The notes under the pieces were generated by a model that ran no database searches, was not told the origin of the DNA, and saw nothing but the letters and a program-made list of their open reading frames with translations. Positions 14,182-61,410 of a DNA stretch of 64,000 nucleotides are shown here, in pieces; position 1 is the stretch's first letter, and each line of letters begins with the position of its first letter. Both the position numbers and the translations under genes were made by a program. This stretch comes from Prevotella sp. (GTDB taxonomy: Bacteria; Bacteroidota; Bacteroidia; Bacteroidales; Bacteroidaceae): positions 45,893 through 109,892 of the forward strand of contig JAFSNR010000024.1 of NCBI GenBank assembly GCA_017443345.1, given 5' to 3'.

Positions 14182-14193
14182 TGTAATTGCAGA

Positions 14194-15138
14194 TTAGTTT
14201 TTCTTTAGCTTGATCTGTATCTTACCACCATTCGGGTCGAAGTCCACCAGCGTTTGATCACCCTTGCGAGTCAGTGACAGTTGTTTCTTTCCCTGTTTGG
14301 CCTCTACGGCTTCGCCACTGACAACCAATGTCAGGGGATGGAAGAATAGTTTCTTGTCTAATGGATTCTTAGGCGTTACAGTCAGCGTGCCTTTACCCTC
14401 CTGGATATCGAGGGTAATGGTGTCGCGCTCTGCGGTATAGGCCAGTACATCGTGGAGAGTAGCTACCCAGATGCGATCCTGCATGCCCGACACCTGCTCC
14501 AAGCAGTCCCAGAGCAGTTGGGGATCCTTGAAAGCATCGTAGCCGATGGTAATACCATGCGTCATCGTCACCTCCCATGTACCTTTTTTCAGCGTACGTT
14601 CAAGCCATTTCTGCACCCACACAGAATCGCGCTTCGAGCCGAAGCTACCCTGAAAGGTGCGGGTACCAACTCTGTCCTTACTACAGAAAGCCACTCCTTC
14701 ATCACTCTTGCGGTTGCCAGGATAGAAATAGGTACGGGGGAATATGCCGGTATTTTCATAGATGACGGTGTCGTTGTGCTGTACTTCGTAGCGAAGAGCT
14801 TCTCCGCTGAGTTTGACAACAGCATGATGCGCCCAACCGTGACTGGTAATCTCCTGTCCGTCGGCATGCATCTCCTTCAGCTGCTCCCATGTCATCGTGG
14901 GGATGCCTTTCCACTTGTCGCCCACCTTCGAACCAATGATGCCAAAGGAGGCTTTCAGACCCAGTTTCTTCAGGCGGGGGAACACCTCGGTATAATGCTC
15001 CTGCAGACCATCATCGAAAGTGAAGCTGATGGCAGCCTGGCGGTCGCCAAAATACTTGGCGACTCGCGCAGGCTGCGCATCTGCAGGTGCCGCCGTGAAG
15101 ACGGCTATGAACAAAAGTAGTTTGTTGATGATCCTCAT
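14194..15138 (-). CDS. Secreted polysaccharide deacetylase (CE4-like)
   Basis: A 314-residue protein with a signal peptide (ends PADAQ) and a NodB-homology domain. FTFDDG carries the metal-binding Asp pair, and SHGWAHH gives the His-x(3)-His-type metal ligands. The C-terminal 80 residues form a small beta-rich domain. CE4 enzymes remove N- or O-acetyl groups. Its place between a GH2 and the PL4 gene in a pectin operon suggests it deacetylates rhamnogalacturonan, which is an inference; most CE4 members act on chitin, peptidoglycan or xylan. Gaps to its neighbours are 8 and 12 bases. Confidence 0.82.
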   Translation of the reverse strand: MRIINKLLLFIAVFTAAPADAQPARVAKYFGDRQAAISFTFDDGLQEHYTEVFPRLKKLGLKASFGIIGSKVGDKWKGIPTMTWEQLKEMHADGQEITSHGWAHHAVVKLSGEALRYEVQHNDTVIYENTGIFPRTYFYPGNRKSDEGVAFCSKDRVGTRTFQGSFGSKRDSVWVQKWLERTLKKGTWEVTMTHGITIGYDAFKDPQLLWDCLEQVSGMQDRIWVATLHDVLAYTAERDTITLDIQEGKGTLTVTPKNPLDKKLFFHPLTLVVSGEAVEAKQGKKQLSLTRKGDQTLVDFDPNGGKIQIKLKKN

Positions 15139-43276: not shown

Positions 43277-44602
43277 ATGTCAAAACGAATTCTATTGTGG
43301 AATTTCCTGCTTTGTTTGGTAGTGATACCATCAGTAGCACAGACTGTTTACGACGTGACGGCTGCAGGTGCAGTTGGTGACGGTAAGACAGATGATGCCC
43401 AGGCTATTCAACGCGTGATTGACCGTTGTTCTGAAGAGGGTGGTGGCAGGGTCCTGCTGCCACGTAACCATGTTTTTCTGGCAGGTCCTCTGGAACTGAA
43501 GAGCAATGTGGAACTGTATCTGGAAGCAACGGCTACCCTGAAAGCCAATCCCGACGAAAGTATTTATCACCTGAGCGCCTTTGGAAAGAATGAGGGCGAA
43601 GGTATGTTGTGGCTCTATGCCAACGATGCTGAGAATATCAGTATTACGGGCAAGGGCACTATCCATGGTAACGGCATCGCGTTTATGGGTGCTGAGCTGG
43701 AAGACAGCTATGAACTGAAGCCGCTGGCAGATCAGGCATTTGACCCTCGTCCCCACGTGTTGACATTGACAAACGTCACAAATCTGATGATCCGTGACGT
43801 GACAATCAAGGAGGGTGCTTATTGGACGGTTCATCTGATTGGTTGCAACGAAGCGGTTATTGAAGGTATTAACCTGATCAACAACCTGAAAATCCGTAAT
43901 GGTGACGGCATCGACCTCGACCACTCGAAGAATGTACGTATCGCCAACTGCCATATTACCTCTGGTGATGACTGTATCTGTCTGAAGAACCGTCGTGAGT
44001 TTGAACAATATGGAAGTTGCCATGATATTACTGTAACCAACTGTGTGATGTCCTCACGTTCATGCGCCATCAAGATAGGGTCTGAGAATATGGACTCCAT
44101 CTATAATGTCGTATTTGATAATTGCATTATTACGGGATCTAATCGTGGCCTGGGTATCCAGAACCGTGACGAGGGAACGGTGACAGATGTGGTATTCTCC
44201 AACATCAAGCTGGATTGCCGTTTGTGGAGTGATGTATGGTGGGGCAAGGCTGAACCCATCTACGTGACCAGCTATCCGCGTGCTAATGGCAACCACAAGG
44301 ATGCCAACTGGCGCTTCCCCAAGGGACAGATTGAAGGCAAGTGTGGTGAGGTAAGCCGCATTTATTTCAATAATATCACTGCCACCTCTGAGAACGGCTG
44401 TTTCGTAGGAGGCGATGAGGTAGGGAAGGTGAAGGACATATATTTTAATAATGTACGCGTGAACCTGAAGAAGGCAGGGCTGCCGCTCATGATGGACAAA
44501 CGTCCTTGCAAAGGCGAGGGCTTTATCAGTGCTGACTGGAACAGTCTGTCGAAGATGCCCGTGCCCTTACTGACGGAGAACGCAGAAGTGAAGATAGACT
44601 AA
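43277..44602 (+). CDS. Secreted GH28 polygalacturonase
   Basis: A 441-residue right-handed beta-helix enzyme with a signal peptide (ends SVAQ). Catalytic acids are in NGDGIDLD and SGDDCICLK; SRSCAIKIGSE replaces the classic GHG-RIK block, as in exo-acting bacterial members. It cleaves alpha-1,4-galacturonic acid links in homogalacturonan or pectin fragments. It is the first gene of a locus that continues with SusC, SusD and a second GH28-containing gene, 30 bases before SusC. Confidence 0.92.
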   Translation: MSKRILLWNFLLCLVVIPSVAQTVYDVTAAGAVGDGKTDDAQAIQRVIDRCSEEGGGRVLLPRNHVFLAGPLELKSNVELYLEATATLKANPDESIYHLSAFGKNEGEGMLWLYANDAENISITGKGTIHGNGIAFMGAELEDSYELKPLADQAFDPRPHVLTLTNVTNLMIRDVTIKEGAYWTVHLIGCNEAVIEGINLINNLKIRNGDGIDLDHSKNVRIANCHITSGDDCICLKNRREFEQYGSCHDITVTNCVMSSRSCAIKIGSENMDSIYNVVFDNCIITGSNRGLGIQNRDEGTVTDVVFSNIKLDCRLWSDVWWGKAEPIYVTSYPRANGNHKDANWRFPKGQIEGKCGEVSRIYFNNITATSENGCFVGGDEVGKVKDIYFNNVRVNLKKAGLPLMMDKRPCKGEGFISADWNSLSKMPVPLLTENAEVKID

Positions 44603-44632: not shown

Positions 44633-47600
44633 ATGATTATGCAAAAGATCCTAAATCTCAAGCAAGGAACGCTGAAGGCGATGTTCTTCGTGTTCTTTCT
44701 GTTGTGCAGTACGGTGATGCTGGCACAGAACAAGGTGTCAGGAACTGTACTGGACGCTACTGGTGAGCCTCTCATTGGTGTTAGTGTTCTCGAGGACGGC
44801 ACCAGTAATGGTGTTATCACCGACTTCGATGGTAACTTCTCACTAACAGTGAAGCAGGGTGCTAAGTTGACCTTCTCTTATGTAGGTTATACATCTCAGA
44901 CCCTCGCTGCTGCTAACGGCATGCAGGTGACTCTGCAGGAGGACAACACCGTCTTGAACGAAGTTGTTGTCGTTGGTTATGGTACCATGCGCCGTAAGGA
45001 CGTGACCTCATCGATCACTACCGTACAGGCCAAGGACCTGAACAAGGGCGTATTCTCTGATCCCGCTTCTATGCTGCAGGGTAAGGTAGCTGGTCTGACC
45101 GTAACGACCTCTGGTGACCCCAACGGTACACCATCAATCACACTACGTGGTGCTTCTTCACTCCGTGAAGGTGCTGCCATGCAGCCTTACTATGTCATCG
45201 ACGGTATCCCTGGTGTTGACATCTCGATGGTGTCTCCCGATGATATCGAGAGTATCGACGTGCTCCGCGATGCTACCGCTACCGCTATCTACGGTTCTAA
45301 GGCAGCCAACGGTGTGATCATCATCACTACCAAGAGTGGTGGTAAGACTGAGCGCACAAACGTCAGCTACAATGGTTATGTGGCATTCGATAATGTCTCT
45401 AAGAAACTCGAAGTGGCCTCGGCTAGCGATATCCGTAACTACGTTTCAAAGAACAACATCGACTACGCTTACGACAAGAGTGGTAACACAGACTGGCAGA
45501 AGGAAGTGCTCCGCACGGGTATCAGCCACAACCATAACCTCTCGATCAATGGTGGTAGTGCCAAGACCAAGTACATGGCAAGTATCAACTTCATGGATCG
45601 TCAGGGTGTTGTTGACGGCACTCACATGAACCGTCTGAATGTCCGTTCTCTGTTGTCTTCAAAGGTATTGAAGGAGCGTCTGGAACTTTCTGTTGGTCTG
45701 AACGCCATGTATGGAAAGAGCGAGAACGGCTCTATGGGCAAGGGCGGCAACGGTAGCGGAAACGAAGGAAAGTCCGTGCTGGATGCTATGAACTACTTCA
45801 ACCCGACCATCCCCATTAAGAATGCCGATGGATCATGGTCAACAGGTGATGGTTCTGCCAACTACAACCCGCTGTCAATCATCAACGAGGATACCTCTGA
45901 GACCATTTGGAAGCGTAACCAGATTGTGGCCAAGGCTTCGCTGAATATCATCGACGGCCTGGTATTGAATGCAAACTACTCGTTCGACCACTTCCAGAGC
46001 ACTTACAGCGACTATCATTCTCATAACACGCAGTTGGTGCCTTACAATGCGTATAATGGTAATGCAAGCCGTAATACCTATTTTGGCAACAACCACACGT
46101 TTGAGACCTATGCTAACTACGACCATACTTTCGGAAATGTTCATAAGCTGGCCTTGATGATTGGTTACTCTTGGGAGGAGCGTAACTCAAACGATGGCTT
46201 CGGTCTGAGTGTCCACAACTTCTTCGATGATTATCTGAAGTGGAACAACCTGACCTATGCAGGAACCATCGACGGTATGACAGCCGTTCAGAGCGGTACC
46301 AAGGAGAAAGTTCGTAACATCTCATTCTACGGACGTGCCAGCTATTCTTTCAACAGCCGTTATATGCTGCAGGCTACTATCCGTCGCGATGGTTCTTCAG
46401 TATTTGCTGATGGTCATCGCTGGGGTACCTTCCCATCTGTATCTGCAGCTTGGAACATCACAGAGGAGCCTTTCATGGCTAACCAGAAGGTGTTCGACAA
46501 TCTGAAACTCCGTCTTGGTTATGGTGTCAGCGGTAATGCTCTGGGCTTCGGTGCCTACTCTGGCGTTGCTACTTATGGCGCTACAGGTCAGACCTTCGTC
46601 TATAACGGAAACAGCTGGGCTATCCTCGGCGCTACAAAGCTGGCTAACCCTGATCTGACTTGGGAGACCACAGGAATGTTTAACGTAGGTATCGACTACG
46701 GCTTCTGGAACAACCGCATCAACGGTAGCATTGAGTTCTACAACAAGAAGACCAAGGACCTAATCTGGGATTATCCCGTATCAACCGTTATCTATTCTTT
46801 CGGCTCGATTGCAGCTAACGTGGGTGAGATTACTAACAGAGGTATCGAGTTCACCATCAACATTGACGCTATCCGCACGAAGGACTTCAACTGGATGACC
46901 ACCTTGAACCTCTCTCACAACAAGAATACCGTTGATAAACTGTCAAACGACAAGTATAAGACCTCTACCTTCGCACAGGGTGACCCAATGGTGGCTGGTG
47001 TATCTGCCAATGGTTATACGCAGCGTGTGATGGAGGGTGAGCCTCTTGGTACTTTCTACCTCTATGAGTATGCAGGTACTGGCACAGAAGGCAAGGCTAC
47101 CTATTATGTACGTGATGAGAACGGTAACAAGACTGGTGAGACCACAAGTTCTCCAGAGTACAAAGACCGTTACATCGCAGGCAATGCACAGCCTAAGCTG
47201 AACCTCGGCTGGAACAACACGCTCTCTTTCAAGAACTGGACAGCTACACTGTTCTTCACGGGCGTATTCGGCAACAAGATCTATAATGGTTCACGTGCGC
47301 ACTATACTGCTCCCGATTTCTTCGCTGGTGGCAAGAACGTGCTGAAGGAGTTCATCACTGACCGTCCTGCTACAGATAACCTGAGCAACGTTCCGTCAGA
47401 CCGCTTCCTCGAGAAGGGTGACTACTTCCGTCTGCAGACCCTCTCTATCGGCTATACCTTCAACAAGCTCGGCGACTGGCTCCAGAGCCTGCAGATCTAT
47501 GCTACTTGCAACAATGTATTTACCATCACTGGTTACAAGGGTCTTGATCCTGAAGTCAGAATGGATGGTATCGATCCTGGTGTAGACTATCGTTGGAGTA

Positions 47601-47650
47601 CCTATCCTCACACTCGTACCTTTATGGCCGGTCTGAGAGTTAATTTCTAA
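44633..47650 (+). CDS. susC: SusC-family TonB-dependent outer-membrane receptor
   Basis: A 1005-residue outer-membrane transporter. A signal peptide (ends MLAQ) is followed by a carboxypeptidase-like domain (about 35-115, GEPLIGVSVLEDGT), a TonB box-like VVVVGYG, a plug domain (about 125-235) and a 22-strand barrel ending in aromatic NF. It imports large oligosaccharides with the SusD protein encoded 21 bases downstream. Being flanked by GH28 genes points to pectic oligosaccharides. Met3 at 44639 is an alternative start. Confidence 0.95.
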   Translation: MIMQKILNLKQGTLKAMFFVFFLLCSTVMLAQNKVSGTVLDATGEPLIGVSVLEDGTSNGVITDFDGNFSLTVKQGAKLTFSYVGYTSQTLAAANGMQVTLQEDNTVLNEVVVVGYGTMRRKDVTSSITTVQAKDLNKGVFSDPASMLQGKVAGLTVTTSGDPNGTPSITLRGASSLREGAAMQPYYVIDGIPGVDISMVSPDDIESIDVLRDATATAIYGSKAANGVIIITTKSGGKTERTNVSYNGYVAFDNVSKKLEVASASDIRNYVSKNNIDYAYDKSGNTDWQKEVLRTGISHNHNLSINGGSAKTKYMASINFMDRQGVVDGTHMNRLNVRSLLSSKVLKERLELSVGLNAMYGKSENGSMGKGGNGSGNEGKSVLDAMNYFNPTIPIKNADGSWSTGDGSANYNPLSIINEDTSETIWKRNQIVAKASLNIIDGLVLNANYSFDHFQSTYSDYHSHNTQLVPYNAYNGNASRNTYFGNNHTFETYANYDHTFGNVHKLALMIGYSWEERNSNDGFGLSVHNFFDDYLKWNNLTYAGTIDGMTAVQSGTKEKVRNISFYGRASYSFNSRYMLQATIRRDGSSVFADGHRWGTFPSVSAAWNITEEPFMANQKVFDNLKLRLGYGVSGNALGFGAYSGVATYGATGQTFVYNGNSWAILGATKLANPDLTWETTGMFNVGIDYGFWNNRINGSIEFYNKKTKDLIWDYPVSTVIYSFGSIAANVGEITNRGIEFTINIDAIRTKDFNWMTTLNLSHNKNTVDKLSNDKYKTSTFAQGDPMVAGVSANGYTQRVMEGEPLGTFYLYEYAGTGTEGKATYYVRDENGNKTGETTSSPEYKDRYIAGNAQPKLNLGWNNTLSFKNWTATLFFTGVFGNKIYNGSRAHYTAPDFFAGGKNVLKEFITDRPATDNLSNVPSDRFLEKGDYFRLQTLSIGYTFNKLGDWLQSLQIYATCNNVFTITGYKGLDPEVRMDGIDPGVDYRWSTYPHTRTFMAGLRVNF

Positions 47651-47671: not shown

Positions 47672-49333
47672 ATGAAAACAAATATCAAGATATTTTTCGC
47701 AGCTGCTCTCACTGCTCTGACTGTTGGCTGTACTAATCTGGATGTTCCTGTAGAGTCTCAGTACACCTCTTATCCTACCAGTGAGGCTGCTATGGAGGCT
47801 CAGCTTTCAGGAATCTATTTCCAGATGCGTGGCTGCTACGGACGTCGTTACATGGAGGCCATGGCACTCTCAAGTGACGAGTATACAGCCGTATCTTACG
47901 GAGGTAACTGGTATGACAACGGTGCATACGCACACCCCAGCCTCCACAACTTCACTTACGAGGATGCCTCTATCGACTGGATGACTGATCTGGCATCAGG
48001 TGTCGTAAAGGCCAATGAGGTTATCAACAGCGATGCTGATGTTAAGTACAAGGCTCCTGCCCGTGCCATGCGTGCCTTCTTCACATTCGTCATGATGGAC
48101 GGATGGGGCGATGTGGCTATCAATGATCCCTCCAAGGCGAATGAGATCGACCTTGAGGCTCGTCAGCCCCGTGCTGATGTAGCACGTTGGCTCGAGAGCG
48201 AGCTGAAGGAGATCATCCCGCAGCTGACTACGGAGATCACTGGTGAGAACTATGGCAAGCCCAATAAGTATATGGCTCAGGCACTGCTTGCCAAGCTGTA
48301 TATCAACTGGCCTGTTTACACCGCTTCTTCTGTAGAGAACTACGATGCAGCAACTGCCAGCAATGAGAAATTGGCTGACTGTATCAATGTCTGCAACGAG
48401 ATCATCAACTCTGGTAAGTTTGAGCTGGGTCCCGATGCTTATCGCTTCAAGTTCGCTTCTGACAATACAGAGCGCGTTGAGGCTGGTACCATCAAGGACT
48501 TCATCTATGCCATGCCTTATCACACTATCGATGCTCAGGGTATGCAGTATGGACGTTCTCACTCTTATAAGGATATTAAGAACATGAAGCCCAGCTATTA
48601 TGGTGAGGCTCTGACCAACTCTGGTGGTGGTTATGTAACCATGGTTCCTGAGTTTGTTAAGGTGTTTGATTTGAAGGGTGATGAGCGTAATAAGCTGATT
48701 ATCGGTCTGTCAGAGAATTTGGACGATTATCGTTATAGCACTGGTGCCGACGAAAACACAGTCTATGTGTATGATCCTTCTACACTGCTCCCCACAACTG
48801 AGGTTGCTAAGAATAAGGAAGGTAATCCTCTGAAGTTAACCAGAAGCATTAATCTGGTAGAGACAGACTTCACCATCAACGTAGGTGATAACCTCGATGG
48901 TTGGCGCCAGGGTTGCCGCAACGTGAAGTGGCATGTGACACGTGCCGACTTTGCCAACGGACGTAACCAGTCTAACGACGTGCCCATCTTCCGCTTTGCT
49001 GACATCTTGCTTACCAAGGCTGAGGCACTCACCCGTCAGGGTTCTTCTGCAGAGGCAATGGCTCTGGTAAACCAGGTTCGTTCTTATGTGAACGCTGAAC
49101 TGCTGACTAGCAATCCGACACTGGAGGACATCTATCAGGAGCGTGGCCGTGAGTTCTTCGATGAGAACTGGCGTCGTAACGACATGATCCGTTTCGGACA
49201 TTTCGAGGACGAGTACTTCCCCCACTACAAGAGCTTCCCAACAGCCAACTTCGACAAGACCCGTCGTGTATGGCCTATCAACAAGAGTATGCTCGACCTG
49301 AACCCGAAGTGGACACAGAACAATGGCTATTAA
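47672..49333 (+). CDS. susD: SusD-family glycan-binding lipoprotein
   Basis: A 553-residue outer-membrane lipoprotein: hydrophobic signal with lipobox ending at Cys19 (TVGC). The body is the helical TPR-based SusD fold, with the RagB/SusD C-terminal pattern ERGREFFDENWRRNDMIRFG near residue 490. It covers the SusC barrel and binds oligosaccharide. Its last 11 bases overlap the start of the GDPD-GH28 gene, so the two are translationally coupled. Confidence 0.95.
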   Translation: MKTNIKIFFAAALTALTVGCTNLDVPVESQYTSYPTSEAAMEAQLSGIYFQMRGCYGRRYMEAMALSSDEYTAVSYGGNWYDNGAYAHPSLHNFTYEDASIDWMTDLASGVVKANEVINSDADVKYKAPARAMRAFFTFVMMDGWGDVAINDPSKANEIDLEARQPRADVARWLESELKEIIPQLTTEITGENYGKPNKYMAQALLAKLYINWPVYTASSVENYDAATASNEKLADCINVCNEIINSGKFELGPDAYRFKFASDNTERVEAGTIKDFIYAMPYHTIDAQGMQYGRSHSYKDIKNMKPSYYGEALTNSGGGYVTMVPEFVKVFDLKGDERNKLIIGLSENLDDYRYSTGADENTVYVYDPSTLLPTTEVAKNKEGNPLKLTRSINLVETDFTINVGDNLDGWRQGCRNVKWHVTRADFANGRNQSNDVPIFRFADILLTKAEALTRQGSSAEAMALVNQVRSYVNAELLTSNPTLEDIYQERGREFFDENWRRNDMIRFGHFEDEYFPHYKSFPTANFDKTRRVWPINKSMLDLNPKWTQNNGY

Positions 49334-51491
49334 TTGCAGATCGTTTTTAACAATTCTATTTGTCTGGACAGTCACAGCTGTGGCTGCCCAGAATTCTATT
49401 GAGATAGTAGTGCATCGTGGAGCCAATGCCTTGGCACCTGAGAATACTATTGCCTCAACGGATTCTGCCCTGAAGTATGGGGCGACGTGGATAGAAGTTG
49501 ATGTGCGCAAGTCGAAGGATGGTGAATTGTTTAATCTGCACGATGCCACATTGGATCGCACGACGAATGGCAAAGGGCTGCTTTCAGACATGCTGGCAAA
49601 GGATGTGCGCAAGCTCGATGCTGGCAGTTGGTTTGGGCCAAAGTTTGAGGGCACTCCTCTACCAACTATTGCAGAAATGCTGGACTATCTGAAGGGCAAA
49701 GCCAATGTTTTCTTCGATGTGAAGCGAGGCACGCCCATTCCTTCTTTAGTCAAACTCGTTCGTGAGAAGGGCTTTGCTGATAAAAGCTTCTTTTGGTTTG
49801 GCGACGAGGCGATGCTCCGTGAGTTCATCAGTCTCGCGCCCGAGATGAAGATCAAGGTGAATGCTGGCGATATCGAACGTCTGAAGTATTGGCAGAGTGT
49901 CTGCACACCTTCATACGTCGAGATTGCTCCAGAGAAGATTACAGACGATTTCCGCAGTTACTGCCACCAGCATGGTATCAAGGTCATGGCTGCCTGCCAG
50001 GAAGACGACACCTCACAGTTCCAGCTTGTCATCGACAAAAAAGCTGACTTGGTAAACCTGGATCGCCCAGAGGTGTTCTTACCGCTGTTACGAAAATCAC
50101 AAGCCTATTCACTTCGTACAGACCAGTTGCAGATTCCTGCTGATGGCAAGACGCTCTGTACCCAACCATTGCAACAGGCCATCGACACCATATATAAGAA
50201 AGGTGGCGGATGGCTGGTATTGACGAAAGGTACTTATCTGACGGGTGGTTTGATGCTGCGCTCTGGCGTGGAACTTTATCTCGAAGAGGGAGCCACGCTT
50301 TTAGGGAGCACCAATCCCTACGACTATCAGTTAATCAATGTGGGCAATGTGGCTGATCAGCGTAATGATAATGCCTCGATGGCACTGATCATGGCTGACG
50401 GGGCAGAGCATATCAGCATCACGGGGAGTGGCACCATCGACGGGCAGGGGCTGCAACTGGCCTTGAATGTCGATAGTCTGCACCATACGGGCGAGCGGCC
50501 AGATCCCCATTACAACCAGCGCCGCCAGCGCCCCAGTGAATTGGCGCGCCCCAAGCTGTTCTTCTTTTATGGTTGCAAAGATGTCAAGGTAGAGGGCGTG
50601 CATTTGCGTAGCAGTGCCAATTGGGGATTGTCCTTCGACCTGTGTGAGAATATGAGGCTGACGAATCTCGACATCGAGAACCGCGCCTATTGGAATAACG
50701 ACGGTATCGACCTGACAGACTGCAAACATGTGCTGGTGGCCGACTGTAGGATTAACTCCGCAGATGACGGGGTCTGTCTGAAGTCCTATCATGCGGATAG
50801 CGAGTGTTACGACATCGAAGTGGCCCGATGCGATATCCGCAGCAGTGCCTCGGCCGTGAAGTTCGGTACGGCCTCATGGGGTGGTTTCCGTAAGGTTTGG
50901 GTGCATGACATCAAGGTGCAGGACACGTTCCGCTCTGCCATTGCCATTGAGAGTGTGGATGGTGGAGAGATTGACGATATCCTTGTGGAGCGCATCGATG
51001 CCAAGAATACAGGCAATGCCTTCTTCCTCCGATTGGGCCAGCGGGCTGGCGACAGAAAGGGCATGTTGCGCAATGTGACAATCCGTCAGCTGAAGTGTGA
51101 GATTGCTTTCGGACGTCCTGATGAGGCATACGATCTGCGCGGTCCCGAGGTGGATTTCTTCCACAACCCATTCCCTGCCAGCATCTGCGGAATCCCGGAT
51201 AACCGCATTGAGAACGTGATGCTTCAGGACATCGATGTAAGCTACCCTGGTCGTGCTACAAAGGGTATGGCCTACATGCCGCTTTGGCGTATCAAGGATG
51301 TGCCGGAGCAGATTCAGAAATACCCGGAGTTCACGATGTTTGGCGAACTGCCGGCATGGGCTCTTTACGTCAGGCATGTCAAAGGCCTGACGCTCCGCAA
51401 CGTCCGTTTCTCCCTTCGTGATACCGACTTCCGTCCAGCCACCGTCTTCGACGATGTCGAGGATGTCTTAAAACACTTGACCATTCCATAG
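49323..51491 (+). CDS. Secreted glycerophosphodiester phosphodiesterase + GH28 fusion
   Basis: A 722-residue secreted protein of two enzyme domains. After a signal peptide (ends VAAQ), residues 26-260 are a GDPD domain with its catalytic set intact: His31 in HRG, Glu40 in ENT, Glu58 and Asp60 in EVD, and His73 in LHD. Residues 280-720 are a GH28 beta-helix with Asp460 in NNDGIDL and Asp481/Asp482 in SADDGVCLK. GDPD enzymes split glycerophosphodiesters; GH28 splits galacturonic acid links. The pairing in a SusCD operon suggests work on one substrate carrying both bonds, which is inference. The 3' end overlaps the convergent ATPase gene by 24 bases. Confidence 0.9.
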   Translation: MAINCRSFLTILFVWTVTAVAAQNSIEIVVHRGANALAPENTIASTDSALKYGATWIEVDVRKSKDGELFNLHDATLDRTTNGKGLLSDMLAKDVRKLDAGSWFGPKFEGTPLPTIAEMLDYLKGKANVFFDVKRGTPIPSLVKLVREKGFADKSFFWFGDEAMLREFISLAPEMKIKVNAGDIERLKYWQSVCTPSYVEIAPEKITDDFRSYCHQHGIKVMAACQEDDTSQFQLVIDKKADLVNLDRPEVFLPLLRKSQAYSLRTDQLQIPADGKTLCTQPLQQAIDTIYKKGGGWLVLTKGTYLTGGLMLRSGVELYLEEGATLLGSTNPYDYQLINVGNVADQRNDNASMALIMADGAEHISITGSGTIDGQGLQLALNVDSLHHTGERPDPHYNQRRQRPSELARPKLFFFYGCKDVKVEGVHLRSSANWGLSFDLCENMRLTNLDIENRAYWNNDGIDLTDCKHVLVADCRINSADDGVCLKSYHADSECYDIEVARCDIRSSASAVKFGTASWGGFRKVWVHDIKVQDTFRSAIAIESVDGGEIDDILVERIDAKNTGNAFFLRLGQRAGDRKGMLRNVTIRQLKCEIAFGRPDEAYDLRGPEVDFFHNPFPASICGIPDNRIENVMLQDIDVSYPGRATKGMAYMPLWRIKDVPEQIQKYPEFTMFGELPAWALYVRHVKGLTLRNVRFSLRDTDFRPATVFDDVEDVLKHLTIP

Positions 51492-53670: not shown

Positions 53671-56274
53671 ATGAAACTGAAACGATTACTACTGATAGCA
53701 GCTTTTTTGCCACTTTCTCTGGCCACGATGGCGCAAGTTTGGCAGTATGTGGACCCTCGTATTGGTAGCGAGGGAGTTGGGCGCACGTTCCCTGGACCTT
53801 CGATGCCTTTTGGCATGTGTAAACCTGGACCTGATTGTACGGTAAATCCCAATGCAGGGTGGGCACCCATGCCAGAGGTGGTGACTGGTTTCTCGCAGAC
53901 ACATGTCAGTGGAACAGGTGGAGGTCAGAAGTATGGAAACATCCTATTATTGCCATTCTTGGGCGAGGTTCAGTCTGAGCAGTTGAGAAAGACTGAGGAT
54001 TTCGCCCTTGGTTATTATACGACAACCTTCGAAAATGACATCCGTACTGAGATGACAGCCTCAGAGCGTTGTGCTTTCTATCGTATACACTATCCTTCAG
54101 CGGGGTCACTTCTCATTGACGCTACTCACTATCTGGGCAAGAACCCTCTGCCAGACCGTCGAGAGCAGCAGCAGTTCGTAGGGGCTGAGGTCGAAGTCAT
54201 CAACGATCACGAGGTCAGAGGTTTTTCCAGAGTGCGTGGTGGATGGAACAATGGCGATGCCTATACGGTGTATTTCTGTCTGATAAGCGAGCAAGGATTT
54301 AAGCAGAAAGCTCCCAACGCAATCGAATTCAACGACACCTTATTAAATATAAAGGTGGGCATATCCTATGTCAGCACGCAACAGGCCAAGCGAAATATCC
54401 CAGACTGCGACTTCGATACCCAATTAAATAAGGTACGCGAGAGCTGGGAGCAACAGCTTTGCAAGTTCCAGATAAAAGGCACCGAAACGGACAAGCGGAT
54501 GTTCTACACAGCCCTTTACCACACGCTGATTATGCCAGTGGACAAAAGTGGCGAGAATCCCAAATGGCGCGAAACGCCTTACTATGATGACTACTACGCC
54601 ATCTGGGACACCTATCGCACCTCTACCCCTCTCATCACCCTGCTCGATGAAAAGCGTGAGGCAGACATCGTGAACTCGTTGCTGAATATCTACAAACGAG
54701 AGGGCTACATGCCTGATGCCCGCAGTGGCGACTGCAATGGTAGGACCCAAGGAGGCTCGAATGCTGAGGTCGTCATCGCTGATGCTTTCGTTAAAGGCGT
54801 GAAAGGCATCGACTACCACTATGCGCTCGAAGCCATGCTGAAGGATGCCGAGGTGGATCCAGGGGCAGATCATGAGAAGCATGGACGAGGTGGCATTCAG
54901 GAGTATCTGAAATATGGCTATATCCCCTATGGTATCGATCGAGCTGGTACGCGAACCATCGAATATGCCTATAACGACTACTGCATCGCTGAGGTGGCGC
55001 AGGGTCTGGGGCGCATGGATATCTACGAGCGCTATCTGAAACAGTCAGCCAACTGGAAGAACCTTTGGCGAGCTGACTATGAGTGGGACGATGTGAAGGG
55101 CTATATCATGCCTCGCGATGCCGAGGGTCGTTGGATGGACTCTGTGCCCTGGGGCAAATCGAAGGTCTTCCATCCACAGATTCCCTATACACCTATCACG
55201 AAAGTGGCACCTTGGTATCTGCCTTGGTGGAGTACCTTCTTCTACGAGGCGCTCTCTGCTGAGTATTCGCTCAGTATCCCTCACGATGTGCCAGGACTTA
55301 TTGCTGCCTGTGGTGGTGAGGAAACCTTCCGCAAGCGACTGGATATGTTCTTCGAGCGCAAGCGCTATAACGTGGGCAACGAGCCTTCGTTCCTCACACC
55401 TTGTCTCTATCACTGGATAGGTCGCCCAGACCTGACCTCAGACCGTGTGCGCCAGATAGTCAAGGATAACTACACGGACCAGCCCGATGGTTTGCCAGGC
55501 AACGACGACAGTGGTGCGATGTCCTCATGGCTCGCCTTTCACATCTTGGGACTCTATCCCAATGCAGGGCAGAGCTATTACTTGCTTCATGCCCCTCTGA
55601 TTCCTGAGTGGACCCTACAGCTCTGTAATGGTAATCAGTTGAAAGGCATTCTAAAAGGCAAGGGCACGCATTTCGAGAAAGTGACCTTCAATGGCCAGGA
55701 GCTGAAAGATGCCCGTGTGGAGCACGCTGACTTGATGCAAGGCGGAGAGCTCGTCTTCTACGTCTCAACTGCTCGTCAGGCTAAGGCTGGCGATTTATTC
55801 CCAAGCTGGGAACAATCCATTCCCAAGGTGGGAACAATTCATTCCCAAGGTGGGAACAATCGCGCAGCCGTAACCTTCACGCTGAACAAGCAGTATCGCA
55901 CGTGGCCCTTGACTTATGACTGGCAAGGCGACACCTTATGGCTTACCTGCAAGGAGGCTACCTACAAAATCGCCCGTTCCATCGTGGAGCAGGGTACAGG
56001 CTTCAGCTGGGACATCCCTGCCGATGGGGCCATCCATGAGACAAAGGGCACCTTCTGCTTCATCTCCAACAAGGCTTTGCGCGATTTGAAAGAGATAGGT
56101 GCGTTCGTATATGACGGCATCACCTGGCGAAAGATTGACCAGGATGCCAACACGATCCATGTGCGTGCTGACATTGATCAGACAGAGATGTGGATCTCTC
56201 TGAAAGACGATCTGCCCTGGGTGGTCGAATTGCGTCATAATCCATTAGGAATCGACTGGCTGATAGAACGATGA
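53671..56274 (+). CDS. Secreted GH92 alpha-mannosidase
   Basis: An 867-residue calcium-dependent exo-alpha-mannosidase family protein with a signal peptide (ends TMAQ). The N-terminal beta-sandwich (about 22-255) begins VDPRIGSEGVGRTFPG, and the alpha/alpha barrel holds GNEPSF (acid region, near residue 570) and GNDDSGAMSSW (base Asp, near 610). It trims alpha-mannose from N-glycans or yeast mannan. A 22-bp sequence repeated three times at 55797-55862 lies inside the C-terminal region. First gene of a three-gene operon; overlaps the kinase gene by 4 bases. Confidence 0.92.
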   Translation: MKLKRLLLIAAFLPLSLATMAQVWQYVDPRIGSEGVGRTFPGPSMPFGMCKPGPDCTVNPNAGWAPMPEVVTGFSQTHVSGTGGGQKYGNILLLPFLGEVQSEQLRKTEDFALGYYTTTFENDIRTEMTASERCAFYRIHYPSAGSLLIDATHYLGKNPLPDRREQQQFVGAEVEVINDHEVRGFSRVRGGWNNGDAYTVYFCLISEQGFKQKAPNAIEFNDTLLNIKVGISYVSTQQAKRNIPDCDFDTQLNKVRESWEQQLCKFQIKGTETDKRMFYTALYHTLIMPVDKSGENPKWRETPYYDDYYAIWDTYRTSTPLITLLDEKREADIVNSLLNIYKREGYMPDARSGDCNGRTQGGSNAEVVIADAFVKGVKGIDYHYALEAMLKDAEVDPGADHEKHGRGGIQEYLKYGYIPYGIDRAGTRTIEYAYNDYCIAEVAQGLGRMDIYERYLKQSANWKNLWRADYEWDDVKGYIMPRDAEGRWMDSVPWGKSKVFHPQIPYTPITKVAPWYLPWWSTFFYEALSAEYSLSIPHDVPGLIAACGGEETFRKRLDMFFERKRYNVGNEPSFLTPCLYHWIGRPDLTSDRVRQIVKDNYTDQPDGLPGNDDSGAMSSWLAFHILGLYPNAGQSYYLLHAPLIPEWTLQLCNGNQLKGILKGKGTHFEKVTFNGQELKDARVEHADLMQGGELVFYVSTARQAKAGDLFPSWEQSIPKVGTIHSQGGNNRAAVTFTLNKQYRTWPLTYDWQGDTLWLTCKEATYKIARSIVEQGTGFSWDIPADGAIHETKGTFCFISNKALRDLKEIGAFVYDGITWRKIDQDANTIHVRADIDQTEMWISLKDDLPWVVELRHNPLGIDWLIER
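55797..55862. repeat. Three 22-bp palindromic tandem repeats inside GH92
   Basis: Units 55797-55818, 55819-55840 and 55841-55862 share the core TTCCCAAG[G/C]TGGGAAC. Because 22 is not a multiple of 3, the three copies are read in three different frames (SWEQS, PKVGT, SQGGN). Three copies keep the frame; two or four would break it. Confidence 0.9.
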
Positions 56275-58160
56275 GACGACTGCTGACGATATTTGCCTTT
56301 TCGATCTGTTGTCTTGCGCTTGATGCAAGCTCCGCAGACAGCAAGGATGCCGTTGAGGTAGCCCTTGCAAAGGTTGATGCGCAGATTGCCCATGAGCAGC
56401 AGGCTGGTAGTCTTGAGAAAGAGGGCGAAGCCCGTTGGCAGAAGATACTGACCCTGAAGAACTATTCGAAGGCGATGGAACTGATTGCTGAGGCCGATGT
56501 GCAGATGGAGTGGTTCCGTAAGAACGATCAGTGGGACAACTATTACCGTACCTGGCAGTTGAAGGCCAACAATCTGTGCTCTGAGGGCAAGCTGCAACAG
56601 GGCCTGCAGGAGACACAACGGATGCTGAACGATGCCAATGAGCGCGACAACAAGTTGGGCCGTGCGATGGCCTACAAGCAGATAGGCATCATCTACCTGA
56701 ATATGAAGCAAACGGAGCCTGCCGTCGAGGCTCTTCAGCATTATGCAGAACTGATGAAGGACGAGAGCGGTGACTTCAGTTCGCTCAGCAATATCTACTA
56801 TCGCATGAGCAAGGCCTACGACTATGACAAGGCCTACGAAAAGGAACTGGAGGTGAATGATAAGTGGATCAGTTTCCTCCACGAGAAGGTGGGCAAACAG
56901 GAGAAGCCTGAGGTGCGCGAGTGCTACAATTCCTGCTATCTGGCACGCACTTCTGCTCTCATCGGACTGAGGAAGTTCGAGGAAGCCAGTCTGGCTCTTG
57001 ATACAGCAGCCCATCATGCCCATCTGGTCAACACCTCGCTCAGCCTGCACCATCTCTATAAGATGAAAGCCCGCTACTACCTGGCAACAGGCGATGCTGG
57101 CAGGGCACTGCTTTATACTGACAGCGTCAAGCTGGTAACATCAGTAAAGGATGAGCATACAGCCGAGGTAAGAGCCTTGGCCCTGATGATGTTGGGATAT
57201 GACAAGGAAGCTGCAAGCATCTATCAGCGTCTGTTCCACGACAAGGACTCTGTCTATGGAGCTGAAGCCCGTCAGCATCTCGACGAGTTGAACACCCTGT
57301 TCCAGCTCGATGACCTCAAGAGAGAACAGCAACTCACCAAGCTCCGATATTTCATGATTGCCGTCGTCTCTATCGTATTGGCTCTTCTGGTGCTGCTGCT
57401 CTTTGGCTGGCGTACTGCCATCAGGCAGAAGAAGGTCAACGAGCAGTTGCGTATCGCCAACGAACGGGCGAATGTATCTGCGAAGATGAAGACTGAGTTT
57501 ATCCGCAACATCTCCCACGAAATACGGACACCCCTGAACATTCTGTCAGGATTCACGCAGATACTGACCACACCAGACATGGAGCTGCTGGAAGACGAGA
57601 AAAAGAATCTGAATGAACAGGTGACTGAGAATACGTATCGCATCACCCATCTGATAGATCGCATGCTTGAACTGAGCGATGCCAGTAGCGAGGTGCTGAT
57701 AGAGCGGAAGGACCATACGGATGCGCAGGCCATCGTGGCAGATGCCATTGAACATTCGAGAATCGACCTCCAGGCTCATAGGGCTGCTGTGAAGTTCGAA
57801 TTTCCTGATCCTCAGACGGCTGCCTCTGTCGCATTGCTCACCAATAAGCTCTACGCCGTGCGCGCCCTTGCACAGTTGCTGGAGAATGCCGCGAAGTTTA
57901 CGCACGAAGGCCGTGTCTCGCTCCACATGGAGTCTACGGACAGGATTGTCCGTTTCACCGTCGAAGATACGGGTATAGGTATTCCGTCAGACAAGGCGGA
58001 GCATATCTTCGGTGAGTTTGTGCAGCTCGACGAGTTTGTCGACGGTACAGGTATCGGACTGCCTCTTGCACGTTCCATCGCTCGACGGATGGGAGGTGAC
58101 TTGTGGCTCGATACCAGTTATTCACGAGGTGCACGATTTGTTTTTGAACTATTAAGATAA
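56271..58160 (+). CDS. Membrane histidine kinase with TPR sensor
   Basis: A 629-residue sensor kinase. A signal peptide (first 20 residues) leads into a periplasmic region of TPR-like helices (about 30-335), a single membrane helix (about 360-382), a coiled segment, the phospho-acceptor His416 in NISHEIRTP, and a C-terminal ATPase with QLLENAAKFT and DTGIGIP. No receiver domain or response-regulator gene is adjacent, so its partner is elsewhere. It lies between two GH92 genes in one operon: 4-base overlap upstream, 7-base gap downstream. Confidence 0.92.
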   Translation: MRRLLTIFAFSICCLALDASSADSKDAVEVALAKVDAQIAHEQQAGSLEKEGEARWQKILTLKNYSKAMELIAEADVQMEWFRKNDQWDNYYRTWQLKANNLCSEGKLQQGLQETQRMLNDANERDNKLGRAMAYKQIGIIYLNMKQTEPAVEALQHYAELMKDESGDFSSLSNIYYRMSKAYDYDKAYEKELEVNDKWISFLHEKVGKQEKPEVRECYNSCYLARTSALIGLRKFEEASLALDTAAHHAHLVNTSLSLHHLYKMKARYYLATGDAGRALLYTDSVKLVTSVKDEHTAEVRALALMMLGYDKEAASIYQRLFHDKDSVYGAEARQHLDELNTLFQLDDLKREQQLTKLRYFMIAVVSIVLALLVLLLFGWRTAIRQKKVNEQLRIANERANVSAKMKTEFIRNISHEIRTPLNILSGFTQILTTPDMELLEDEKKNLNEQVTENTYRITHLIDRMLELSDASSEVLIERKDHTDAQAIVADAIEHSRIDLQAHRAAVKFEFPDPQTAASVALLTNKLYAVRALAQLLENAAKFTHEGRVSLHMESTDRIVRFTVEDTGIGIPSDKAEHIFGEFVQLDEFVDGTGIGLPLARSIARRMGGDLWLDTSYSRGARFVFELLR

Positions 58161-58167: not shown

Positions 58168-61100
58168 ATGGAAAAGAGAAGTTTAGATATGGTATTAAGA
58201 CGACTTGCGATCGTTTTACCCTTTTACCTTTTTACCTTTTTACCTTTACACGCTCAGTATGAGAAGATGGGTGGCGTGTATTATGCCTATCCCGTGACGG
58301 AGACTGTATTAGCCTCTGCCCCAGAGGGTTTCGAACCGATCTATATTTCCCATTATGGGCGTCATGGTTCCCGTTGGGTGACCAGTGACAAGCGATATAT
58401 CTGGGTGAACCAGCAGTTTGAGGATCAGAAGAATCTGACGAAGCTGGGCAAGAGTTTACGCAAACGCCTTCAGAAAGTGTGGAAGAATGCTCAGGGTAAT
58501 GGTGGCAAGCTGACACCACTAGGTGGCAGACAGCATCGCGGCATCGCCCATAGGATGTATCAGAACTTACCCCAGCTCTTCACTGCTGAGGCCCGTCTGA
58601 CAGCTCATAGTAGCGTTGTGGGGCGTTGCAAGAGCAGTATGGAGAACTTCGTGTCGGAATTGAAATCGCTGAATCCATCGATACAGATCGACCCTGTTAC
58701 CCGTGAGGAGGACATGGATTGGATTGCTTACACCTCGCCAGAGCAAAAGGCTTTGGAGCAGCGTACGAATGTGCCGTTGAAGATCTCCCCTGAGCGGTTT
58801 GTCAAGGCACTCTTTATAGATCCTTCGAAGGTGGAGGATCCCACCAAACTGCTCTTGGAACTGCATACGATTGCTTCAGATATGCAGGATGTCGAGCTGG
58901 ACATCTCGCTCTATGATCTCTATACGATGGAAGAGATGGAAGCCGTCTATGCCAAGAACAACGAGGGTATGACCACCATTCATGGCGACGTGATTCAGAA
59001 TGAAGGCATCCCAGCCCGTAGTGCCATCTCCTTGTGGCAACGGATCGAGGCAGATGCCGATGCTGCCATTGCCCGTGGTGGTGTGGGGGCAGACTTGCGC
59101 TTTGGGCACGACTCGAATCTCTTCCGACTGATGAACCTGATGCAGATTGCCCCAAAGGATATGCCTATGGACGAGCTCCTGCCTATGGCAGCTAATCTTC
59201 AGATGATTTTCTATAGGAATGCACAGGGTGATGTCATTGTGCAATTACTGCATAACGAACAGTCTATGGGCTTTAAAAACTGGAAGGAACTGAAGCAGCA
59301 GGTGAGCACTCGTATTCACGAACTCGAGCACCTGCGACAGCTCTGTGCCCTGAATACGATGGTGGGAACGGCTCCTGCCAATACCAAGACGGCAGGACTC
59401 TTTGGTAAAGGTTCTGAGGAACATGGCCAGACGTTGCCAGCCGTTTTGGCTCCCAATGGACAGAACTTCTGGACACCTCAGACACAAGATACGGAGAAGA
59501 AGTGCATTGCACCTTATTATTATACAGACTCGCTGCTACAGGGTTTCCGCAACAGTCATTGGATTGTGGGTGGTTGTACGCAGGACTATGGCTCGTTTAC
59601 CCTCGCTGCACTTGGTGGCCAACTGCGTCTGAGACCAGCAGAACGGGCTACGCCATTCTCGCATGCAGAAGAGATCTCGCATCCTCATTACTATGCTGTC
59701 CGTCTGCCTCAGGAGCATCTGAAGGTGGAGATGACTGGCAGCAGTCATACGGCCATTTTCCGTATCACCCCAGAGCAAGACGGTCCAGTACACATCATCC
59801 TGAACCATAACAGCGATGAGGGCGAGGGATACCTGGAGATCAACCAGCAGGATAAGACGATCTATGGCTATAATCCTGTTCATCGCATCTATCAAGGCTG
59901 GGGTGAGCATGCTGGTTTCGATGGTCATTATCTGCTCCAGGCTTACGATGAAATCGAGGATTCTGGGTGCGACAGCCTTTGTGCGTGGTTTACGTTCCGA
60001 GGTAAGGCTCATGAGCCGATAATCCTGAAGGCAGCCACCTCGTTTATCTCGAAAAGAGGTGCAGAGGACAATTTTGCCTTTGAGGCTGAGGGGCATGACT
60101 TTGACAGTATGATGGAGCAACTGGCCCAGCAATGGATGGATCGTCTGCACACCATCGACGTTGAGGATCCTGATACGGCTCGTGTGAACCAGTTCTATGG
60201 TGCTCTCTATCGCTGCAGCTTCCTGCCTCACGAGATGAGTGACGTGGATGGAACTTATCCTTCTTTTGCCAATGGTGAGCTTGCCGTGGGAAAAAGGAAG
60301 TATTATGGCGACTACTCCATGTGGGACACCTATCGCGCTGTTCATCCACTCTATAACATCATCGCTCCTCAGCAGTCGGCTGATATGATGCAGTCGTTGG
60401 TAACGATGTATGAACAGGGTGGGTGGTTGCCTATCTTTCCTTGTTGGAACTCCTACACAGCAGCCATGATTGGCGATCATTGCAGTGTTGTTCTGGCTGA
60501 TGCCTATGTGAAAGGAATTCGCGATTTCAACGTGGAAAAAGCGTATGAAGGTATGCGGAAGAATGCCTTCGAGACTCCAGCATCCTTTGAGGATTACAAG
60601 AATGGTATGGGGCGTAGGGCTTTGCCTTCGTATTTGAAGTATGGCTATATCCCCTTGGAGGATGGTGTCAAGGAAGCTTTCCATCAGGATGAGCAGACCT
60701 CGCGCACGCTGGAGTATGCCTTCGACGATTTCGCCGTGGCCCAGTTGGCAAAGACCTTGGGTAAGGATCAGGATTATCAGGAGCTGATGCGTCGCTCTGA
60801 GAACTGGCGAAACGTCATCAACCCCAAAACAGGCTATTGCGACGGACGCCATGAACCAAAGCAGATCTCTAAGAAGAAGACGGATGGCGGTAAGTTTGAG
60901 GATAACCTCGACTTCATCCATCGCAAGCCTTACATCACAGAAGGGGCTACCTGCCACTATACCTGGTATGTGCCTCAGAATGTTGAAGGGCTTGTGGAGA
61001 TGTTAGGAGGCAAGGCACAGTTCGAGGCCAAACTCGACTCGATGTTCACTGAAGGTCGCTACTGGCATGGTAATGAACCCTGTCACCAGATTGCCTATTT

Positions 61101-61410
61101 GTACGATTTCATCGGTAAACCTGAGAAGACTGCCCAGCGCGTGGCCCATATCCTCGACACAGAGTATAACGACACCCCAGGAGGCCTTTCAGGCAACGAC
61201 GATGCTGGTCAGATGTCTGCCTGGTATGTCTTCTCGTCGATGGGCTTCTATCCCGTCTGTCCTGCTACGGATCGATATATGCTCACAGCGCCCCGTTTCC
61301 AGAAGGTGACGCTGAACCTCCAGAACGACAAGAAGTTCGTCATCACACCAACATCCCTGCCAAAGGACAGAAACTACATCACCCACGGAGAAATCCTGCA
61401 AGGGAATTAG
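58168..61410 (+). CDS. Secreted histidine acid phosphatase + GH92 alpha-mannosidase fusion
   Basis: A 1080-residue secreted protein. The signal peptide (ends LHAQ) is encoded partly by an octamer repeat. Residues 35-440 are a histidine acid phosphatase (phytase/MINPP type): catalytic R65-H66-G67-S68-R69, LTPLGGRQ, and the proton-donor pair His314-Asp315. Residues 455-1080 are a GH92 domain with GNEPCH and GNDDAGQMSAW. The pair could first remove phosphate and then mannose, for example from mannose-6-phosphate glycans or phosphomannan; that is inference. Last gene of the GH92-kinase operon. A start at 58189 is possible. Confidence 0.9.
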   Translation: MEKRSLDMVLRRLAIVLPFYLFTFLPLHAQYEKMGGVYYAYPVTETVLASAPEGFEPIYISHYGRHGSRWVTSDKRYIWVNQQFEDQKNLTKLGKSLRKRLQKVWKNAQGNGGKLTPLGGRQHRGIAHRMYQNLPQLFTAEARLTAHSSVVGRCKSSMENFVSELKSLNPSIQIDPVTREEDMDWIAYTSPEQKALEQRTNVPLKISPERFVKALFIDPSKVEDPTKLLLELHTIASDMQDVELDISLYDLYTMEEMEAVYAKNNEGMTTIHGDVIQNEGIPARSAISLWQRIEADADAAIARGGVGADLRFGHDSNLFRLMNLMQIAPKDMPMDELLPMAANLQMIFYRNAQGDVIVQLLHNEQSMGFKNWKELKQQVSTRIHELEHLRQLCALNTMVGTAPANTKTAGLFGKGSEEHGQTLPAVLAPNGQNFWTPQTQDTEKKCIAPYYYTDSLLQGFRNSHWIVGGCTQDYGSFTLAALGGQLRLRPAERATPFSHAEEISHPHYYAVRLPQEHLKVEMTGSSHTAIFRITPEQDGPVHIILNHNSDEGEGYLEINQQDKTIYGYNPVHRIYQGWGEHAGFDGHYLLQAYDEIEDSGCDSLCAWFTFRGKAHEPIILKAATSFISKRGAEDNFAFEAEGHDFDSMMEQLAQQWMDRLHTIDVEDPDTARVNQFYGALYRCSFLPHEMSDVDGTYPSFANGELAVGKRKYYGDYSMWDTYRAVHPLYNIIAPQQSADMMQSLVTMYEQGGWLPIFPCWNSYTAAMIGDHCSVVLADAYVKGIRDFNVEKAYEGMRKNAFETPASFEDYKNGMGRRALPSYLKYGYIPLEDGVKEAFHQDEQTSRTLEYAFDDFAVAQLAKTLGKDQDYQELMRRSENWRNVINPKTGYCDGRHEPKQISKKKTDGGKFEDNLDFIHRKPYITEGATCHYTWYVPQNVEGLVEMLGGKAQFEAKLDSMFTEGRYWHGNEPCHQIAYLYDFIGKPEKTAQRVAHILDTEYNDTPGGLSGNDDAGQMSAWYVFSSMGFYPVCPATDRYMLTAPRFQKVTLNLQNDKKFVITPTSLPKDRNYITHGEILQGN
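58214..58245. repeat. Octanucleotide repeat in a signal-peptide region
   Basis: TTTTACCT in four tandem units (the first is TTTTACCC), encoding the hydrophobic core of the signal peptide. A change of one unit shifts the frame near codon 25. Confidence 0.88.

Follow-up and report, generated by a model that had tools for sequence, protein, structure and literature searches.

We describe a GDPD-GH28 fusion protein, real and secreted, encoded in a 64,000-nucleotide stretch of Prevotella sp. DNA (the window), and propose that it works as an enzyme of a SusCD-type locus that utilises glycosyl-inositol-phospholipids, with plant glycosyl inositol phosphorylceramides (GIPCs) as the likeliest substrate, a reading to which we give about half of our confidence. 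With a little more reserve, we picture a system of rumen and gut Bacteroidota for the uptake and degradation of GIPC head groups, in which the GDPD would be a GIPC phospholipase and the GH28 the first alpha-glucuronidase of its family, acting on GlcA-inositol. According to PMC9113257, the GIPC head group has GlcA on Ins-P-Cer, with Man or GlcN(Ac) attached to the GlcA, and up to 45% of plasma-membrane lipid may be GIPC; a 2021 review calls the mechanism of their digestion "not yet clarified". No paper linking GIPCs or GDPD to utilisation loci appeared among the matches listed in open-licence PubMed Central text.

A fused gene in a SusCD utilisation locus

The SusC and SusD pair with its adjoining co-directional glycosidases identifies a SusCD utilisation locus, composed as follows.

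43277..44602, + strand: GH28a, a secreted GH28 (Pfam GH28 E 3.9e-28), candidate exo-type uronic-acid glycosidase
44633..47650, + strand: SusC-type TonB-dependent transporter (TIGR04056 E 2.6e-242)
47672..49333, + strand: SusD-type lipoprotein (PF07980 E 1.1e-27)
49323..51491, + strand: 722-aa GDPD-GH28 fusion protein whose signal peptide has no lipobox (open frame, domain matches)
49389..50096, + strand: GDPD domain, predicted phosphodiesterase with intact catalytic residues (solved relatives, residues, clade)
50097..51488, + strand: GH28f domain with its three catalytic Asp, AIAIES replacing RIK (Pfam, alignments)
53671..56274, + strand: first GH92, candidate alpha-mannosidase (Pfam GH92 E 2.1e-136; GNEP and GNDD motifs)
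about 55873-56268, + strand: small domain, C-terminal in the first GH92 (25% identity to the reference)
56271..58160, + strand: sensor histidine kinase, probably a regulator, with a GH92 gene on either side (HisKA, HATPase_c)
58168..59400, + strand: branch-2 histidine phosphatase domain, MINPP/phytase type (PF00328 E 5.7e-8; RHGSR, GHD)
59401..61410, + strand: GH92b domain of the phosphatase fusion, candidate alpha-mannosidase (Pfam GH92 E 2.7e-150; 2wvy E 4.8e-99)

The fusion is a single open frame without internal stops, in which Pfam matched residues 31-134 to GDPD (E 1.4e-25) and residues 344-535 to GH28 (E 1.4e-15). Its start codon lies inside the 3' end of susD with an 11-base overlap, which bears out the coupling to susD described in an earlier, sequence-only reading of this DNA. 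That reading had also named an assembly error as a finding that would refute it, and had called for a survey of its occurrence beside SusCD. Nine of 24 other related loci have the same fusion, one from the named isolate Hallella mizrahii (L051) and eight metagenome-assembled or uncultured, and a locus of a second bacterial family (L152) encodes a 764-aa protein in the reversed order, GH28-GDPD. The two domains have thus been joined repeatedly and independently, the fusion is conserved, and an assembly artefact is excluded.

As in the pectin and mannan utilisation loci of Bacteroidota, a sensor kinase and secreted glycosidases encoded in the same direction accompany SusC/SusD; unlike in those loci, a phosphodiesterase and an inositol-phosphate-type phosphatase recur, and the proposed target is the head group of a lipid rather than a polysaccharide. 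A lipobox-like N terminus was found in 32 of 33 SusD proteins of the locus set, in none of 23 GH92 and in none of 21 fusion or GH28f proteins. Of the locus proteins in the window only SusD has one, so that no surface endo-enzyme is apparent. Most enzymes look periplasmic, and hence a lipid or a phosphodiester fragment would need passage through the outer membrane. The N termini of GDPD, GH28a and phosphatase from the second family are lipobox-like.

The GDPD domain belongs to a distinct clade

The GDPD domain is a member of its family (PF03009; 91.3 bits against a Pfam gathering score of 23.6), its best solved relatives being 1zcc (E 1.7e-42) and 2pz0. It holds H31, R32, E40, E58, D60, H73 and D74, which we take to be the catalytic His, Arg, Glu/Asp metal ligands and second His, and all 32 locus-type GDPDs (31 of them distinct, since L077 and L040 are one contig) have identical residues at these seven positions. 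Where an E-x-K motif usually has its Glu, the fusion has Asp132; Asp occupies this site in 32/32 locus-type and 16/22 other aligned GDPDs.

Locus-type GDPDs form one clade of 31 (support 98/99, in a tree of 53 rows with some long branches), and some of its members are fused to GH28, to GH92 (L055, L071, L076), to DUF3089 or to the small domain, which also occurs in other proteins of the system. The window GDPD shares with 1zcc and 2pz0 the family match and intact catalytic residues but differs from them in its own clade, its E-x-K Asp and its fusion to GH28. In the source genome (4.16 Mb, 92.1% complete, 204 contigs), the fusion is the sole GDPD match. The clade was found in 5 of 15 genomes of the second family, in 2 other genomes among 393 searched in the order and in 1 distant genome among 394 searched in the phylum; the L153 region holds no locus of this type.

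GH28 domains without RIK

GH28f belongs to GH28 (57.7 bits against a Pfam gathering score of 22.9; Asp motifs NNDGID and DDG). The RIK segment of polygalacturonases is carboxylate-binding; placed by alignment to 3jur, this site reads AIAIES in GH28f, and RIK is absent from all 18 GH28f rows of alignment A1 (AIAIES 14, ALAIES 2, AIAMES 1, AIALEC 1). The name polygalacturonase, given earlier to this domain, is thus too specific. The best named model is that of the BT4146-type rhamnogalacturonidase (NF049898, E 2.6e-65), but GH28f, at 220.9 bits, stays below the curated cut-off of 500 and so falls outside that model. GH28a, whose best solved relative is 5olp, also misses RIK at the aligned place; it has a homologue in 22 of the 24 loci, directly 5' of SusC in 21. 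In 7 of 18 long loci (L064, L068, L070, L072, L078, L079, L080), GH28f occurs without GDPD, GH92 or phosphatase in the stretch, and hence also works outside the locus.

Conserved partners of the GDPD domain

The 24 loci, collected by the GDPD domain alone, contain SusD in 23, SusC in 22, GH28 in 22, GH92 in 14, phosphatase in 12 and GH89 in 4, and since they form one clade, Fisher values overstate the evidence. Hallella mizrahii and Prevotella ruminicola KHT3 are among the carriers. Forty control GDPD regions of the bacterial family, hand-picked among the matches listed with seven locus-type genes left out, gave SusD 0, SusC 13, GH28 2, GH92 1, phosphatase 0 and GH89 0; homologues in both sets were scored by tblastn with the system's own proteins, a choice that favours close relatives. 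As the controls lack this gene company, a chance neighbourhood was rejected.

Partners that point to the substrate had escaped the sequence-only reading: the two GH92, the phosphatase-GH92b gene (58168-61410) and, in relatives, GH89 with an HGSNAT-like acetyltransferase. The phosphatase domain is closest to 7r5y (E 3.7e-32) and to the B. theta MINPP 4fdt (E 2.3e-29), and this similarity, its RHGSR and GHD motifs and its His_Phos_2 scores (30.6 bits for the whole protein, 33 for the domain, cut-off 23.6) together assign it to the MINPP type; the genome-wide search gave it 22.1 bits, under the cut-off. With five phosphatase-family genes in all, the family is not rare in the source genome. Six loci have a calcineurin-like phosphoesterase, and the phosphatase is co-present in none of them.

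Among the 18 long loci, the seven bearing GDPD (L077 repeating L040) contain GH92 in 7, SusD in 6, GH28 in 2, phosphatase in 2, GH89 in 2 and the calcineurin-like phosphoesterase in 4. The GDPD is not required in the locus, as it is missing from L065, whose genome (G150) gives no GDPD model match, and from L063, which has GH28a, SusCD, GH28f and phosphatase. In L034, GH43 is the only reference-set gene accompanying the GDPD.

GH89 is the alpha-GlcNAc-ase family, and it was found in 21 of 24 genomes examined (G249 plus those of every one of the 24 loci but L044). GH89 and HGSNAT-like homologues lie side by side in 19 of 20 GH89 regions, and they adjoin pieces of the system in 8 of the 21 carrier genomes with GH89 (8/22 including the window's own); the probability calculated for this linkage takes 3 x 20 kb per 3.4 Mb as its assumption. 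The source genome has its GH89 and acetyltransferase on another contig than the window, and the HGSNAT-like copy of L047 matches DUF5009 and Acyl_transf_3 only, under the cut-off. In lysosomal heparan sulfate breakdown, HGSNAT acetylates terminal alpha-GlcN and NAGLU then removes the GlcNAc. The PF07786 and PF05089 genes are likewise paired here, but the bacterial pair sits beside SusCD, GDPD and GH28.

A nine-gene operon and a model for GIPC utilisation

Three genomes of the second family (loci L151/L157, L154/L158 and L155) contain a co-directional operon in the order SusC-SusD-GDPD-GH89-GH92-small domain-HGSNAT-GH28-phosphatase, its domains assigned by Pfam in L151, including PF07786 and PF05089, and by tblastn in the other loci; the remaining two of the five clade-bearing genomes have the reversed fusion and a locus cut by a contig end (L156). 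This single operon thus holds a candidate gene for each head-group bond (Man, GlcN(Ac), uronic acid, phosphodiester and phosphomonoester). The window holds GH28, SusCD, GDPD, two GH92 and the MINPP-like phosphatase, the whole set except GH89/HGSNAT. Because the nine-gene operon matches the needs of GIPC head groups enzyme for enzyme, we propose a GIPC-utilisation locus.

Observed are the gene content, its conservation, the intact GDPD residues and the repeated independent fusions; the model built on them infers the substrate, the order in which bonds are cut and every activity. SusD and SusC would bind the head-group glycan, or else the entire amphiphile, and take it in. The GDPD domain would cleave the phosphodiester between inositol-phosphate and ceramide, and the MINPP-like domain would take the phosphate off inositol. 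GH92 would remove mannose; on GlcN-type head groups, the HGSNAT-like protein would N-acetylate GlcN before its removal by GH89. The GH28 domains would cleave the uronic acid from inositol, and the fusion would then join in one protein both bond-breakers flanking inositol. To our knowledge, GH28 acts only on GalA glycosides and no characterised member is an alpha-glucuronidase, so that cleaving GlcA-inositol would be new to the family. No gene for handling ceramide was recognised.

Competing substrates

GPI anchors are the main rival to GIPCs. The locus would then degrade GPI-type glycans (Man3-GlcN-Ins-P-lipid) of plants, fungi or protozoa, which we consider unlikely, with GH92 acting on the mannoses, HGSNAT and GH89 on GlcN, GDPD on the Ins-P-lipid and the phosphatase on Ins-P. 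Every function except one finds a match, and the window and several relatives have two GH92 per locus. Mammalian GDE3 offers a precedent, as PMC5576486 describes this GDPD enzyme as a GPI-phospholipase C that cuts GPI anchors, leaving inositol 1-phosphate; the likeness, a GDPD domain cutting a glycosyl-inositol-phospholipid, is one of function. GDE3 has six transmembrane segments, whereas the window protein looks secreted. Moreover, five distinct loci from other genera (L069, L071, L073, L074, L076) carry GDPD and GH92 without GH28 in the stretch, GH28f lying elsewhere in three of their genomes, and on account of these loci we weighted the GIPC readings lower and GPI higher. GPI cores contain no uronic acid, yet GH28a directly precedes SusC in nearly all of the loci, and GH28 is also found inside the nine-gene operons and fused to GDPD in both orders.

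Less likely again is a glycan with uronic acid and phosphodiester decorations (glycerophosphate or mannosyl phosphate), such as a fungal phosphomannan or a bacterial capsule; its glycerophosphate form was an idea of the sequence-only reading. GDPD classically cuts glycerophosphodiesters, and mannan loci contain GH92 and phosphatases. Three observations speak against it: the lack of lipobox-like starts on the locus enzymes of the window, the resemblance of the phosphatase to the histidine acid phosphatase 7r5y and inositol-phosphate (MINPP) enzymes, and the HGSNAT and GH89 of the relatives, which point to alpha-GlcN. The first of these likewise tells against the "polymer" of that reading, and its glycerophosphate decoration is not supported, but the wider gene set agrees with its hunch that the substrate is a lipid-linked uronic-acid compound with a phosphodiester. 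As substrates, yeast phosphomannan and heparan sulfate were rejected, no mannanase or heparinase being present among 65 Pfam-queried proteins (part of the loci's genes), although the L049 phosphodiesterase also scores above the cut-off of the Sulfatase model (42.6 bits).

A pectin locus, with GH28 acting on rhamnogalacturonan fragments and GDPD scavenging phosphate only from phospholipid head groups, is improbable: the window does contain an RG-I type region at 8-42 kb (PL4-like lyase, GH127, two GH51-type, GH43, esterases), 9 of the 24 loci have a GH43 or GH51 homologue close to the GDPD and GH28f weakly matches the rhamnogalacturonidase model, but GH43/GH51 were not found in the stretch of the other 15 or in the second family's loci (GH127 and PL4 being outside the probe set), and the GDPD is repeatedly fused to GH28 and GH92, which the 40 other GDPDs, among the matches listed, rarely adjoin.

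Implications for gut Bacteroidota

Our study offers a likely role for genes otherwise named only GDPD or polygalacturonase, in a conserved gut-bacterial gene set that looks built for the head groups of plant sphingolipids, a major plant lipid. If the GIPC model is true, it would provide enzymes for GIPC glycan analysis and extend utilisation loci from polysaccharides to phosphosphingolipids, suggesting how leaf membranes may supply bacteria of the herbivore gut with inositol, phosphate and sugars.

The fusion gene and its neighbors

The GDPD-GH28 fusion gene reads through 722 aa in one frame without a stop (49323-51491, forward strand), and its start lies within the end of susD, the overlap being 11 bases. 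The protein begins with a signal peptide without a lipobox, as judged by a simple pattern, followed by a GDPD domain with all catalytic residues (Pfam residues 31-134, E 1.4e-25; most of residues 26-258 covered by alignments to solved GDPD relatives) and by a GH28 domain (Pfam residues 344-535, E 1.4e-15) that retains the three catalytic Asp and has lost the RIK segment of polygalacturonases. This GDPD is the sole Pfam GDPD match in its genome (4.16-Mb assembly, 92.1% complete).

The first block of the system runs from a separate GH28 gene (GH28a) through SusC and SusD to the fusion, whose GH28 domain and homologues we call GH28f. AAA_14 and QueC genes follow on the opposite strand, and then GH92, a sensor kinase and, last, a branch-2 histidine phosphatase joined to a second GH92 (GH92b). 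The phosphatase domain carries RHGSR and GHD motifs; its nearest solved structures are 7r5y, a histidine acid phosphatase (E 3.7e-32), and 4fdt, the MINPP inositol-polyphosphate phosphatase of Bacteroides thetaiotaomicron (E 2.3e-29). Both GH92 domains retain the GNEP and GNDD motifs, which have a catalytic role. An RG-I pectin region lies upstream of the fusion locus:

8644-42000, PL4-like lyase, GH127, two GH51-type arabinofuranosidases, GH43, SASA esterases, hybrid two-component regulator

Conservation of the locus

Searching with only the GDPD domain gathered 31 loci, of which 24 belong to Prevotellaceae or Bacteroidales (GDPD identity 71-91%). In these 24 the GDPD stands alone (13) or is fused to GH28 (9), GH92 (1, L055) or DUF3089 (1, L050), and the fetched stretches, several cut by contig ends, hold SusD (23 loci), SusC (22), GH28 (22), GH92 (14), phosphatase (12) and GH89 (4). 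GH28a lies immediately upstream of SusC in 21 and GH43 or GH51 homologues are nearby in 9. In a control of 40 further GDPD regions from the family, hand-picked among the matches listed, SusD, phosphatase and GH89 were each found in 0, GH92 in 1, GH28 in 2 and SusC in 13. The 31 distinct GDPDs of locus type make up a single clade (support 98/99) in a 53-row tree, some of the remaining rows having long branches.

The partners vary. L034 has the GDPD, and SusCD, GH92 and phosphatase were not found in its stretch; L063 and L065 retain most partners and lack the GDPD, the L065 genome having no GDPD match genome-wide. In five distinct loci that pair GDPD with GH92 and belong to other genera (L069, L071, L073, L074, and L076), GH28 was not found in the stretch; three of their genomes (G168, G224, and G140) carry GH28f elsewhere. 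The genomes of L043 and L050 carry GH92 and phosphatase-GH92 genes away from the GDPD, adjoining GH89/acetyltransferase (L137 and L140). A calcineurin-like phosphoesterase occurs in six loci, and the phosphatase was not found in any of those stretches (Pfam for L074 and L076, tblastn for the rest).

Several loci bear other genes. L066 and L067, in whose stretches no GDPD was found, combine GH28a, GH28f, GH92 and the calcineurin-like phosphoesterase with an alpha-galactosidase and an acetylesterase (identified by Pfam in L066), and may handle Gal-bearing head groups. In L049, a type I phosphodiesterase/nucleotide pyrophosphatase (13656-14567; PF01663, E 1.9e-28; also Sulfatase PF00884, E 6.2e-11) sits between the GH92 and phosphatase-GH92 genes. 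In L033, a patatin-like phospholipase gene (12477-13325, opposite strand) directly follows the GDPD-GH28 fusion. Finally, a SusC of another kind (26-32% to that of the window system) lies a few kb away from GDPD genes in L094, L096, L100, L104, L106, and L109, the GDPD genes being paired in tandem in five of the six; these are perhaps a second type of GDPD and SusC locus in the family.

A nine-gene operon and recurrent fusions

In a second family of the same order, three genomes (G713, G1105, and G1106) each carry nine co-directional genes: SusC, SusD, GDPD, GH89, GH92, a small domain, an HGSNAT-type acetyltransferase (PF07786, E 2.7e-12 in L151), GH28 and phosphatase. The genes flanking the operon on both sides match none of the reference proteins (those of the system); in G713, further GH92b and GH28f lie about 14 kb beyond it. 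GH89 adjoins the acetyltransferase in 19 of 20 fetched GH89 regions (one from the window's genome, those of 16 more carriers, two refetched linked loci and a second G249 copy, the exception). In the window's own genome the pair is on a different contig, and in 8 of 21 GH89-bearing carrier genomes GH89 lies beside pieces of the GDPD system:

L040, L045, L047, L054, L075: the GDPD locus itself
L137, L140: GH92 and phosphatase
L143: GH28f

Fusion has recurred independently. L152, of the second family, encodes a 764-aa GH28-GDPD protein of reversed domain order directly after SusC-SusD, and the GDPD-GH92 fusions of L055, L071, and L076 require three changes on the tree. The DUF3089 alpha/beta hydrolase fused to GDPD in L050 (9944-11593) has a homologue (64%) in another carrier genome, about 7 kb from GH89 (L133, 16221-17069). 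A small unnamed domain of ~150 aa, without a Pfam match, is N-terminal to GDPD in L069, L073, and L074, occurs on GH92 (window), phosphatase (L075) and calcineurin-like phosphoesterase (L076) proteins and as a stand-alone gene, and is possibly a targeting or binding module:

window, about 55873-56268
L073, 9457-9924
L075, 17186-17638
L076, 6838-7293
L151, 15638-16192

Localization and predicted substrate

Scored by simple pattern rather than a trained predictor, lipobox-like starts were found in 32 of 33 SusD, 0/23 GH92, 0/21 GH28f or fusion proteins, 1/17 GH92b (most phosphatase-fused), 3/16 GDPD, 4/28 GH28a, 0/6 phosphoesterases and 0/5 GH89. Their rarity among the enzymes implies that, in most carriers, the substrate would be imported before cleavage. 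In the second family, the N-termini make GDPD, GH28a and phosphatase seem to be lipoproteins.

We infer the activities of the locus, its substrate and the bond order from this gene set. It suggests a phosphodiester as the target of the GDPD, an inositol phosphate for the MINPP-type phosphatase, a uronic acid in alpha linkage for GH28, alpha-mannose for GH92, and a terminal alpha-GlcN or GlcNAc for the acetyltransferase with GH89. GPI anchors would fit every part except the uronic acid, which they lack. We know of no abundant plant compound with such a set of parts other than the glycosyl inositol phosphorylceramides (GIPCs). Plant GIPCs are described as Man-GlcA-Ins-P-ceramide or GlcN(Ac)-GlcA-Ins-P-ceramide (PMC9113257, PMC7980081). 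In open-licence PubMed Central text, we found no paper joining GIPC or GDPD to utilization loci. With a GIPC as the predicted substrate, GlcA would, to our knowledge, be a new target for GH28.
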